Source: a bacterium
GTDB taxonomy: Bacteria > CSSED10-310 > JAJRTK01
Direction of reading: 5' to 3'
DNA: 6,866 nucleotides
NCBI GenBank assembly: GCA_024278345.1
Contig: JAJRTK010000112.1
Location: forward strand, 1 to 6,866
The first letter of the stretch is position 1; the number at the start of each line of letters is the position of its first letter. The position numbers and the translations under genes were made by a program. Positions 2,199 to 6,808 of this stretch are shown here, in pieces. The notes beneath the pieces were generated by a model. That model was given only the letters and a program-made list of their open reading frames with translations. It did no database searches and had not been told where the DNA came from.

Positions 2199-2539
2199 AC
2201 GCATCCCGCGGTGCAAGTCTCCCGGACGATCACGGCGGACAAAGCGGGCAATCGGGGTTTGACTTTCCGCCAGACCCACCGCGCCAGGTTTTCGCTGGTA
2301 GGATTCTCCAGCCCTTCGACGTCATTCAGGTAGTGGTGATCCAATTGCCGGTAAAATGGCTCGAATGCGGCCTTGACTTCGGCAAAATCCAGGACCCAAC
2401 CCTCCGGTTCCAAAAGGCCACCCCGAACCCGGAGTTCGATTCGAAACGAATGGCCGTGGAGCCGGGAACACTTGTGGCTCGCGGGAAGGTTAGGCAAACG
2501 GTGAGCAGCTTCAATCCGAAATTCTTTATAGATTTCCAT
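2177..2539 (-). CDS. queD: 6-carboxy-5,6,7,8-tetrahydropterin synthase
   Basis: The 120-residue protein closely follows E. coli QueD, with an offset of three residues. It converts 7,8-dihydroneopterin triphosphate to 6-carboxytetrahydropterin, the step after GTP cyclohydrolase I in the pathway to preQ0, queuosine and other 7-deazaguanines. Zinc ligands are H13, H28 and H30 (EAAHRL and RLHGHS). Catalytic residues are C24 (SHKCSRL), D67-H68 (LDHHYLND) and E107 (RETCTAGC), matching Cys27, Asp70, His71 and Glu110 of the E. coli enzyme. [13 protein letters not shown] (76-88) is the other family signature. All key residues are present, so it should be active. The frame is open 29 codons further upstream, but homology begins at the ATG at 2539. 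The ribosome binding site is weak: a GGAA about 11 bases upstream. No queC, queE or queF lies nearby. The gene converges on and overlaps the glycosyltransferase gene, with no terminator between them. Confidence 0.96.
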
Positions 2540-2719
2540 GAAAAAACTAGTTCCAATGGGAAAGCGACCCCAAGCAAAGGTTGGGAACACCATTTCGAGG
2601 CAACTGTTACAACCGAACGGTGCCAAAAAAACAACGTTTTCAAAACCAATATTCTTACCACGGACTGTAGCGGGACAATCTGAGGCACGTTGGCAGCAAG
2701 ATCAGGGAGCCCCGCCGAA

Positions 2720-2755
2720 GGCGTGGGCGCGGTCAAACCCGTTCTACCGCACGCC
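2720..2755. repeat. Bulged 10-bp hairpin in the queD divergent region
   Basis: GGCGT (2720-2724) and GCGGT (2729-2733) pair with ACCGC (2746-2750) and ACGCC (2751-2755). This leaves a four-base bulge and a 12-base loop. A second stem lies just downstream: TCCGC (2764-2768) with GCGGA (2786-2790), enclosing CCG (2773-2775) with CGG (2782-2784). Two neighbouring stems in a gene-free GC-rich patch suggest a structured RNA or leader, on whichever strand is transcribed. No known RNA family is recognised. Confidence 0.4.
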
Positions 2756-2830
2756 AGGTCATGTCCGCCCGTCCGTGACGTCGGTGCGGATGATGGGTCG
2801 ATCGCCACAACGGGCCTATGGTAGGAATTT

Positions 2831-2869
2831 ATGGAAAAATTACCCAACGGCGTTCCTTGTAAGGGGTAG
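2831..2869 (+). other. Possible 12-codon leader ORF followed by a hairpin
   Basis: An ATG at 2831, preceded by AGGA at 2823-2826, opens a 12-codon frame (MEKLPNGVPCKG) that stops with TAG at 2867-2869. The hairpin AGCGGA (2868-2873) with TCCGCT (2888-2893) begins on that stop codon. The ribosome binding site of the next gene follows at 2916-2922. This order resembles a translated leader controlling a downstream gene. The peptide has no run of a single amino acid that would name a signal, and short ORFs of this size arise by chance. Confidence 0.25.
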
Positions 2870-2915
2870 CGGAAAGTTTTTCGTTTCTCCGCTCTTCGGC
2901 AGCTTGGAGTCGCCC

Positions 2916-2922
2916 GGGAGGG
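2916..2922 (+). promoter_or_regulatory. Strong ribosome binding site for the acidic-protein gene
   Basis: GGGAGGG lies 8 bases before the GTG at 2931. This near-consensus site decides the start of a frame that is otherwise open about 390 bases further upstream. The next in-frame ATG (2988) has no comparable site. Confidence 0.75.
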
Positions 2923-2930
2923 TTTCTCTC

Positions 2931-3905
2931 GTGTCCCCCTATCACACGGAAGTGTTTGGGAAGTTCCGCATCGAGCCTTGTCTCTCAATGGAACAAGTCG
3001 TTTACCTGCGGGGGTTTGCTCAGACTCTAAGGGTTCGCCGCGATCCGGAGCTCATTCGGTTCCTTTCCTCGAAGGGCGAAGTCGATGACTCTCTGCGTCT
3101 CTCCGCTGGTATCGTCTCTCTTGGCGCCTTCGGCGAGTTTTTCGTGCCTGCCCCGGGTGCTCCCGCCCCCGCTCACGACCCCACAGTCATCGAGACAACC
3201 TTGCCTCCTAATACACTGCCTTGCCTCACCTGTCCCTGGCTTCCCACCCAAGATGGAGCTTTCCTGGTCTGGAGCGGGAATGGGACCTGCGGCCATCTCC
3301 CCGAATGGCTCTGTTACATGCTTCTCAACTTCTTTTATCCATGGGACCGGGATCTTGTTGGCTCGATCTACTGGCAGGGAGATGATTGCCTCGATCTGGG
3401 GATTATTCACGTCGATCCCATGGGAATCTGCATTGACGAAGTGAATACGCCAGACGAAGAGATCACGGCCTTTTTCCCGGTCGACGACGACGATCTCGAA
3501 GATGCTCCTCTACCGTGGGAAACAGGTGACTGGGAAGAAAGCGACGATTCCTCCATCAACGTGGTTGGCCTGTTCCGCCGACATGAAATCCCACTCTGGG
3601 AACCAGAGCAGGAGGATTGGACTCCCGCATCTCAGGAAGAGTGCTCCGGTACGGAGGCCCTCGCCGATCATCACGTTCTGAATCCGCCCGATTCCAACGT
3701 GATGATGGAGTTCTTTGCTGAAATCATCTGCCATCTGGACCTGGAAAGCGACGCCGGTCTCTTAAACTCGCTTTACGAATTCCAGAACATGCTTGACTTA
3801 CTTCTTGTCCGCGCCATGGAGGAAACCCATCCCGAAACCCTGCTCCGCCTCGAAATGCTCCTGGAAGCTGTCAGGGACTTCATCGAATATCTGGAAGAGA
3901 GCTAG
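2931..3905 (+). CDS. Uncharacterised acidic protein, 324 residues, with a strongly acidic C-terminal extension
   Basis: I do not recognise a characterised function. The GTG start is set by the GGGAGGG site. Residues 1-170 look like a compact domain: SPYHTEVFGKFRIE at 2-15, a helix ending LRVRRDPE (33-40), GEFFV (68-72), CPWLPTQDGAFLVW (101-114), EWL...FFYPW (125-138) and IYWQGDDCLDLGIIHV (146-161). From memory, this series (YHTEV, TRR.KRDPE, PT.DG, PW, WQG.D, D.G.I.V) recalls an unnamed hypothetical protein found in assorted bacteria and phages; that is recall, not a search result. Residues 171-324 appear to be an added part. They start with a very acidic linker (DDDD at 185-188, then many E, D and W residues) and end in a leucine-rich acidic helical segment (255-324). 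No signal peptide or membrane segment is seen, so it is probably cytoplasmic. The stop shares the CTAG at 3902-3905 with the opposing gene. Confidence 0.8.
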   Translation: MSPYHTEVFGKFRIEPCLSMEQVVYLRGFAQTLRVRRDPELIRFLSSKGEVDDSLRLSAGIVSLGAFGEFFVPAPGAPAPAHDPTVIETTLPPNTLPCLTCPWLPTQDGAFLVWSGNGTCGHLPEWLCYMLLNFFYPWDRDLVGSIYWQGDDCLDLGIIHVDPMGICIDEVNTPDEEITAFFPVDDDDLEDAPLPWETGDWEESDDSSINVVGLFRRHEIPLWEPEQEDWTPASQEECSGTEALADHHVLNPPDSNVMMEFFAEIICHLDLESDAGLLNSLYEFQNMLDLLLVRAMEETHPETLLRLEMLLEAVRDFIEYLEES

Positions 3906-4369
3906 CTCTTGGTCAGCTTCGCCTTGAGCATGGCGAGTTCATCTTCCACGGCCTGCTCCTTTTCTTCCCGGAGCATTTGTCCCTCCAACGCGGCGTCGGG
4001 CCCAAGCAGTTCCTCGAACTGGTGGAGCAAAGCCTTGGCATTGGTGAACGGTACTGCTTCACTTTTTTGTTTGAGCTTGCCTTGGAGGACTTCGACTTTC
4101 GCTTCGAGGGCCATTTTTTCTGCCTTGAGGCGGGCCGCATCGGAACGGAAGAGCTGAACCTTACGGCCAGCAACCTCGGCAAGCTCTTGGTGGGAGCTTT
4201 TCTCCGCGATCTGATGTCGCCGTTCCCAAGCAATGACCTCCTGGAGCTTTTCTTGGAACTCCCGGTCAAGCTTGTGGAGGGTTTTGACGTAAGCCAGGAC
4301 GTATTCGCGTGCCTGAGCATAGTCCATGCCGTGGAGACTGAGCTCTGGATCTTCGTAACCGTCAATCAT
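3902..4369 (-). CDS. Coiled-coil protein, 155 residues, coupled to the response regulator; possibly PspA-like
   Basis: Function is not established. Nearly the whole chain is charged and helical. A long coiled coil covers about residues 17-103, rich in K, E, Q and regularly spaced L, V and A. A break follows at VPFTNAKALLHQFEELLGPDA (106-126), then a second short helix ends VEDELAMLKAKL (141-152). The pattern AWERRHQIAEKSSHQELAE (47-65), the second coil half and the final EDELAxLKAKL recall PspA/IM30 phage-shock proteins, which bind membranes and remodel them under stress. However, 155 residues is shorter than the usual 220 or so, and the N-terminal amphipathic helix of PspA is not evident, so this is a suggestion only. 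No signal peptide or membrane segment is seen. The ATG overlaps the regulator's TGA in an ATGA, a classic sign of translational coupling, so the two products are probably made together and may act together. Confidence 0.83.
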   Translation of the reverse strand: MIDGYEDPELSLHGMDYAQAREYVLAYVKTLHKLDREFQEKLQEVIAWERRHQIAEKSSHQELAEVAGRKVQLFRSDAARLKAEKMALEAKVEVLQGKLKQKSEAVPFTNAKALLHQFEELLGPDAALEGQMLREEKEQAVEDELAMLKAKLTKS

Positions 4370-5121
4370 GGCATCGCCTCGTGGGAGGCCGGCGAGTTCT
4401 CGGACTGCCGGTCATGGGACGTGTTGGAAGTGAAGCTTCCCGCCAGCACACACTCGATCATTTCGGAGTGAAGGCGTCGAATCAGGGCAGCCACAATCTC
4501 TTTGATGTTGGGGCGATGGACGTAGGGAGTGTAGTCGATGGTTTTTTCCCCGAGTTTTTTTCGATTCGCCGTGGCTCGGACCACAACCTTTGGCTCTCGG
4601 GAACCCAAATCCCTGGTCACAATGAGATATTGTAAGTTGCCCACCATCACGGAATCGGTCAGCTCTGCCGGAGGGCCGCTCGCTGCCTTGTTCCGAACCC
4701 CTTCAACCTCCTGATCATCCTGGCTGGGTCCGTACCGTCGGTCGAGTTCAATTTTGCGCATGCTGACGCCTGTTTCGACGATCTCCGCCAGCTCGTCAGC
4801 GCGAAAGGGTTTCGATATATAGTCCGAAGCACCAGCTTTCATCAACGTCACGGCGACCTTTTCCGAGCCTTTGCCAGTCATGATGATGACGTAGGTGGCC
4901 GGCCAGTGGAGCTTGATCTCTCGAAGCACCTCCAAGCCGTTCATCCGCGGCATCATATAATCGAGAAGCACGATGTCGGCCCGGATTTTTTCCATGACCT
5001 TGAGCCCGTCTTCCCCATCGTAGGCCGAGTGGATCTCGTAGTCGGAATTATCTTGAAGGAGCACCGTCACCAGCTCAACGATGGGTTTCTCGTCGTCTAT
5101 GAGGAGAATTTTCGTGGTCAT
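4366..5121 (-). CDS. Response regulator with CheY-like receiver and unrecognised C-terminal output region
   Basis: The product is 251 residues. Residues 1-122 form a complete receiver domain: acidic pair D9-D10 in LLIDDEKP, phosphoacceptor D54 in VLLDYMMPRMNG, T82 in IMTGKG, and K104 in YISKPF. Phosphorylation from a histidine kinase is therefore expected. After a hydrophilic linker (about 123-155) comes a region from 155 to 228: LTDSVMVGNLQYLIV, then KVVVRATANRKKLGEKTIDYTPYV, then a helix NIKEIVAALIRRLHSEMIECVLAG. I recognise no HTH, GGDEF, EAL, HD-GYP or PilZ motif in it, so it is probably not a DNA-binding regulator. The last 20 or so residues look disordered. The ATG at 5121 has AAGGTG at 5132-5127 (minus strand), five bases before the start, and homology begins there; the 28 upstream in-frame codons are rejected. 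No kinase gene is in the window. It overlaps the coiled-coil gene by four bases. Confidence 0.92.
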   Translation of the reverse strand: MTTKILLIDDEKPIVELVTVLLQDNSDYEIHSAYDGEDGLKVMEKIRADIVLLDYMMPRMNGLEVLREIKLHWPATYVIIMTGKGSEKVAVTLMKAGASDYISKPFRADELAEIVETGVSMRKIELDRRYGPSQDDQEVEGVRNKAASGPPAELTDSVMVGNLQYLIVTRDLGSREPKVVVRATANRKKLGEKTIDYTPYVHRPNIKEIVAALIRRLHSEMIECVLAGSFTSNTSHDRQSENSPASHEAMP

Positions 5122-6564: not shown

Positions 6565-6741
6565 TTATAAGGGCTTCCAGAGTGGATGGATTGTGACGAA
6601 AGTTGGGCGGCGGTCGGACGGGAGGAACTCGCGCCAAAGGGGCATCCACGCAACGCGGGACAATTCCAGGACTGTGGAACTGCAAGCGCCAACGCCTCGC
6701 TATCGCTCGGCGGGTCACGCTGCGCGTTACCCGAAGGTCGT

Positions 6742-6760
6742 CCGGGGCCTCCGGCCCCGG
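6742..6760. repeat. Perfect 8-bp GC hairpin
   Basis: CCGGGGCC (6742-6749) pairs with GGCCCCGG (6753-6760) around a three-base TCC loop. It is the first of three closely spaced perfect hairpins. Confidence 0.65.
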
Positions 6761-6766
6761 TCCCCG

Positions 6767-6783
6767 GCAGGGCTTTGCCCTGC
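6767..6783. repeat. Perfect 7-bp hairpin with TTT loop
   Basis: GCAGGGC (6767-6773) pairs with GCCCTGC (6777-6783), with TTT between. It lies 6 bases after the preceding hairpin. No T-run follows, so it is not a classic terminator. Confidence 0.65.
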
Positions 6784-6808
6784 ACCCACCAGGGAGCACG
6801 CTCAACTT

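Follow-up and report, generated by a model that had tools for sequence, protein, structure and literature searches.

The gene pair and its junction

The window, by which we mean the whole stretch of 6,866 nucleotides from an uncultured bacterium analyzed here, carries on its minus strand a gene for a response regulator and, directly downstream, a gene for a small protein that we call mini-PspA (Table 1). Both open reading frames were exactly as given in the preliminary description, with the TGA stop codon of the regulator gene and the ATG start codon of the mini-PspA gene sharing the nucleotides ATGA. The junction reads ...GAGGCGATGCCATGATTGACGG, and a Shine-Dalgarno-like GAGG is located just 5' of the mini-PspA start codon. 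Overlaps of 4 bp are commonplace in bacterial operons, and the overlap is not conserved in the orthologous pairs, which are separated by gaps of 14 bp in genome G001 and 22 bp in genome G003. We have given it no special weight. No kinase, MglA or MglB gene adjoins the pair. A toxin-antitoxin-like pair was also considered and was rejected, as nothing was found in its support.

Two other features of the window were recorded. The mini-PspA gene and a convergent plus-strand ORF (2538-3905) have a CTAG palindrome at positions 3902-3905 in common, from which each of them takes its TAG stop codon; the plus-strand ORF had no match in Pfam or NCBIfam. The segment at positions 6690-6800 is GC-rich with palindromic segments (e.g., GGGGCCTCCGGCCCCGG), and is possibly a dispersed repeat.

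Table 1. Features of the response regulator and mini-PspA genes in the window.
Feature	Position	Strand	Basis
Response regulator gene, 251 aa from ATG	5121-4366	-	ORF
Receiver domain, residues 5-115	4777..5109	-	PF00072, E=7.8e-31
Codon for D54, predicted phospho-acceptor, motif LLDYMMP	4960..4962	-	Orthologue alignment and receiver-domain convention (inference)
Putative RomY-N-like output domain	4423..4698	-	Output-domain profile match; NCBIfam NF053858 RomY_Nterm
ATGA overlap of regulator stop and mini-PspA start	4366..4369	-	Read directly
Mini-PspA gene, 155 aa	4369-3902	-	ORF
Predicted PspA/Vipp1-like helical hairpin, residues 17-105	4055..4321	-	AlphaFold2, hhalign, Foldseek
Predicted C-terminal helix with DELxxLKxKL motif, like that of PspA	3908..4000	-	AlphaFold2, H124-154, pLDDT ~60-74

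The small protein is related to PspA and Vipp1

Profile comparisons indicate that the 155-residue protein is a shortened relative of PspA, a membrane-remodeling protein, and of Vipp1 (PF04012, ESCRT-III superfamily). When searched against all PDB sequences, a profile of the three orthologues identified Vipp1/PspA at 8.4e-9, ahead of the first unrelated match at 0.73, while a profile of 16 family members identified PspA/Vipp1 at 8.5e-12, the best other match being a designed coiled coil at 0.0037. Nothing other than Vipp1/PspA among the PDB sequences, which include every solved coiled coil, matched the profile at a meaningful score. PF04012 was matched individually by 9 of the 16 members (E up to 0.1, best 2.8e-7), and the next-best Pfam family by 4 of them, at 0.006. 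The window protein itself had no PF04012 match at E up to 1, and its G001 homolog scored 19.5 bits against a cut-off of 33.9. Alignment of the family to 13 canonical PspAs with hhalign gave a probability of 97.9 over residues 16-105, in agreement with the PspA-like nature that the preliminary description had considered possible.

The long coiled coil noted in that description corresponds to a helical hairpin in the AlphaFold2 model, which was computed from two input sequences. Helices 17-57 and 61-105 form the hairpin (core pLDDT 92-95) and are followed by two helices of lower certainty, while residues 1-16 are mostly unstructured. In a Foldseek search of this model against the PDB, Vipp1/PspA took the top nine places, and most of the next matches were other ESCRT-III proteins. 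The E-values were weak (0.02 or more), and in VIA-align similar Z-scores were reached by many unrelated hairpins. With a long helical hairpin, structural matches of this strength are not sufficient on their own, so the assignment to PspA is carried by the sequence profiles. In the alignments, a W-x2-R-x3-A motif followed by LA, with W48, R51, A55, L63, A64 and A67 invariant, corresponds to the turn of the PspA hairpin.

The PspA-like C-terminal helix of the preliminary description was likewise visible. The helix, VEDELAMLKAKL, was recovered in a true PspA (L038) with 52% identity over ~50 residues, and D143, E144, L145, L148 and K151 are invariant in four members of the mini-PspA family. In PspA, helices alpha-4 and alpha-5 take part in polymer contacts. 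The second hhalign block, which covers the C-terminal helix, is weak (probability 0.5), and the hairpin is the stronger evidence for PspA of the two.

The protein is not a complete PspA. The N-terminal alpha-0 helix, which in the PspA family is amphipathic and precedes the EDP segment, is absent, and the match to Vipp1 begins at residue 40 of Vipp1. Because of the missing alpha-0 helix and the reduced length, we named the protein mini-PspA and did not file it as PspA, and no support was obtained for a role as stress effector, as had been suggested. The hairpin formed by alpha-1 to alpha-3 in IM30 reportedly suffices to bind membranes, which it does by its positive charge (PMC12636044). The net charge of the mini-PspA hairpin is only +3 for the window protein and 0 for its G001 counterpart, which makes membrane binding by charge uncertain. 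Three canonical PspAs are encoded in the same genome.

The regulator has a receiver and a RomY-like output domain

The receiver domain of the regulator is complete, including the acidic pocket, the acceptor D, the T/S and the K, with D9, D10, D54, T82 and K104 invariant in the three orthologues, of which the G001 and G003 proteins are 45% and 33% identical to the window protein. Beyond PF00072, no other meaningful Pfam domain was found. Pfam revealed no helix-turn-helix or other DNA-binding output domain, and the NCBIfam matches of the regulator, aside from the one described below, cover the receiver. A DNA-binding regulator was accordingly rejected, as the preliminary description had already proposed.

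What that description did not recognize is the output domain, which provides the main mechanistic clue. Searches of Pfam, PHROGs and PDB profiles returned nothing useful for this domain, which was named by NCBIfam alone. All 25 aligned output domains matched NF053858 (RomY_Nterm), the best at 8.1e-40, and the G001 regulator matched it over the full model length with 75.8 bits, above the 50-bit cut-off. The window regulator scored 22.3 bits (E=1.3e-4), under that cut-off, and its output domain is, on profile evidence, a divergent RomY N-terminal domain. It has partly lost the hallmark HxQTED residues, with YLIVTRD where others have YHIQTED, and the partially conserved, SLDEVI-type C-terminal tail of standalone RomY proteins is absent from the regulator. 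Given the changed hallmark residues and the score under the cut-off, the GTPase function of the window regulator may have diverged. An AlphaFold2 model of the regulator, made from a single sequence, had a pLDDT of 40 and was set aside.

The RomY-like domain points to control of the MglA/MglB polarity GTPase. RomY of Myxococcus enhances the action of MglB as a GAP for MglA, an effect due mostly to RomY residues 1-89, and this segment has been modeled on MglA and MglB (PMC9481161). In Bdellovibrio, RomR, itself a response-regulator protein, directly contacts RomY (PMC11025332), which makes the fusion of a receiver to a RomY domain a plausible Rosetta stone.

Conservation of the gene pair

The small protein was found in 3 of 8 genomes of the phylum, which represent three different families, and in all three its gene is located directly 3' of the same regulator gene. 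None of the eight genomes was found to have only one of the two genes, and the other five lack the pair. Two sets of three genomes placed at random among eight would coincide exactly with a chance of 1/56, a figure that involves small numbers and several incomplete genomes. It is the kept adjacency and order across three families, and not the overlap, that goes beyond chance.

Outside the phylum, homologs of the two genes were also found unlinked, which partly speaks against the preliminary description by the yardstick it had set itself, regular linkage of the homologs. Among 296 genomes of Spirochaetes, ~15 members of the mini-PspA family were identified, none of them with the regulator gene adjoining. 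One relative, L037 of the Spirochaetales, came from a pattern-based genome scan, in which true PspAs were also among the matches listed and whose low yield is no evidence of rarity. In the diverse genome set, mini-PspA is rare, with strong, short matches in ~8 of 337 genomes, and this rarity makes its presence in G407, a genome from another phylum that also encodes a receiver-RomY fusion, suggestive; the two genes of G407 are on different contigs. Scans of IMG/VR with both proteins revealed no relatives.

The neighborhoods of the free-standing genes, with neighbors named by eye, are varied. The mini-PspA genes of Spirochaetota (L046-L059, L037:4992-5444) are often located by mnmE, a glycerophosphodiester phosphodiesterase gene or murJ. 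At L163 in G423, a mini-PspA region (~5666-7163) lies near a gene resembling those for YbjN/CesT-type proteins, and CesT_Tir-type chaperones have been reported as neighbors of PspA (PMC11237479).

Co-occurrence with MglA and MglB

We compared the distribution of the pair to that of MglA and MglB. The window genome contains an mglBA operon on contig C312, whose MglA has the motifs YYGPGLCGKTTNLQ and TVPGQV, and mglBA operons were also identified in G001 (L165) and G407 (L170). MglB is also present in G003, with a gene for a standalone RomY-like protein ~3 kb away. The three phylum genomes with the pair are also those with MglB; four of the five genomes without the pair had no Roadblock match and the fifth (G006) had one match below the cut-off. 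All four genomes with a receiver-RomY fusion have MglB, and three of them an mglBA operon. In the Spirochaetes, mini-PspA occurs without the regulator and, in G060, without MglB, which argues that mini-PspA does not need the regulator or the Mgl system.

Proposed mechanism

Taken together, the pair suggests, but does not prove, a signaling route that proceeds through proteins rather than DNA. The analysis shows the two homologies, the synteny, the co-occurrence and the presence of MglA/MglB and of canonical PspAs, and from these phosphorylation, contact between the two proteins, the GTPase target and the location are inferred. We tentatively favor, as quite possible but short of probable, a reading of the regulator as an orphan of the RomY type that is switched by phosphorylation and acts on MglA/MglB, with mini-PspA as its dedicated partner. 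A kinase encoded elsewhere would phosphorylate D54 of the receiver, and the phosphorylated receiver would switch the attached RomY-N-like domain. By analogy with RomY, this domain would engage MglB, a Roadblock protein, together with the Ras-like GTPase MglA, and would tune GTP hydrolysis and, with it, cell polarity or the localization of surface machinery. Mini-PspA would most likely bind the regulator and recruit it to the membrane or to PspA polymers in the same cell; alternatively, it may relay the output of the regulator to these sites, or be released by the regulator and act there itself. A bolder version, a phosphorylation-controlled co-GAP with a minimal ESCRT-III-type hairpin partner that couples two-component signaling, a Ras-like polarity GTPase and PspA-type polymers, we regard as unlikely when taken as a whole.

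RomY domains near cell wall genes, and other explanations

The wider distribution of the RomY domain also points to another possible target. A profile of the output domain matched 38 of 337 diverse genomes, mostly in standalone proteins with the core YHIQTEDSG. Outside the phylum, genes for standalone RomY-N proteins were located within a few kb of ftsE-ftsX(-envC) in 17 of 32 genomes, far above the ~0.3% expected for a 10-kb neighborhood in a 3-Mb genome. Homologs of ftsE, ftsX and envC were identified with profiles whose seeds, recognized by eye, numbered three for FtsE and two each for FtsX and EnvC. This linkage indicates control of the cell wall as much as of polarity, and the RomY domain could serve to control cell wall hydrolysis in many bacteria, possibly also in the window regulator. 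The regulator may then act in cell wall remodeling or division and not in polarity, with mini-PspA anchoring it at the membrane or septum. Such a role would be consistent with the presence of RomY domains in G002 and G004, which are without any Roadblock protein, and with the neighbors, named by eye, of two other RomY genes: the window genome encodes on contig C17 (L106:5897-6241) a second, standalone RomY protein of 114 aa (109.7 bits) next to a gene resembling an L,D-transpeptidase gene, and in G001 a RomY gene is located beside an RlpA-like gene. However, no RomY copy from the phylum of the window was found near ftsEX, the receiver-RomY fusions were found only in genomes with MglB, and the sole experimental work on the RomY domain concerns MglA/MglB (PMC9481161). 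We consider a cell wall role for the pair rather unlikely, although it retains appreciable weight.

As to the arrangement of these loci, the RomY-N genes (L082-L101, L113-L123, L127, L128, L136) are often located just 5' of ftsE-ftsX(-envC), and at some loci a transketolase pair intervenes. In G549, a RomY domain was found in a long ORF with an apparent FHA domain (L102), and another RomY protein is encoded at L126.

Mini-PspA could also act independently on canonical PspA polymers, by regulating or capping them, and be co-expressed with the regulator without contacting it, with both proteins serving the envelope. The free-standing genes in other neighborhoods in the Spirochaetes, and in G400, G538 and G407, would fit such independence; the retained hairpin and PspA-like last helix are parts that could join a PspA polymer or cap it, and three canonical PspAs are encoded in the genome. 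We judge this explanation somewhat less probable than the cell wall role. Against it count the order of regulator and mini-PspA gene, which is kept in three phylum families with spacings of no more than 22 bp, and the lack of phylum genomes with just one of the two.

An arrangement comparable to LiaRS-LiaH, in which a two-component regulator controls a conventional membrane stress effector of the PspA type, would agree with the homology to PspA and with the known location of PspA genes beside two-component genes (PMC11237479). In the reported arrangements, however, a receiver-HTH protein is accompanied by a linked kinase, whereas no HTH and no adjoining kinase gene were seen here, and the missing alpha-0 helix also counts against this explanation, which is improbable. 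Least probable is that the match reflects nothing but the composition of an unrelated coiled coil, as the weak Foldseek E-values, the unspecific Z-scores and the lack of a Pfam match for the window protein alone might suggest, since among all PDB sequences, every solved coiled coil included, only PspA/Vipp1 reached good scores, the residues of the hairpin turn are conserved and the family search brings in true PspAs.

Should the reading of the pair as a RomY-type regulator of MglA/MglB with a dedicated partner be true, it would represent a class of response-regulator output by protein contact, in which a receiver drives a RomY-type domain, and it would link bacterial Ras-like polarity control to the PspA/ESCRT-III family. 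The analysis also defines a widespread mini-PspA family that is largely missed by PF04012, and the common location of RomY genes with ftsE-ftsX-envC makes the general role of RomY outside Myxococcus testable.

Comparison with known systems

Mini-PspA has the same helical hairpin with the turn signature and a similar C-terminal helix as PspA and Vipp1 (IM30), which are ~220 residues long, as compared to 155 here; it is without alpha-0 and part of the alpha-1 to alpha-4 region, and its gene context differs. The output domain of the regulator is probably homologous to RomY of Myxococcus xanthus, the co-GAP of MglB for MglA. In the window regulator, the domain is fused behind a receiver, lacks the SLDEVILSYL C-terminal motif and has partly lost the hallmark residues. 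RomR, the polarity response regulator of the MglA module, likewise lacks a DNA-binding domain and comes from a genome with MglA/MglB; it is not known to carry a RomY domain.

LiaRS-LiaH and other PspA two-component operons also combine a two-component regulator with a PspA-family gene, but those regulators bind DNA and have a linked kinase, and no arrangement reported there joins a regulator of the RomY type to a shortened PspA (PMC11237479). A literature search of open-licence papers found no paper that links RomY and PspA. The pair is a combination of known parts that is itself new.
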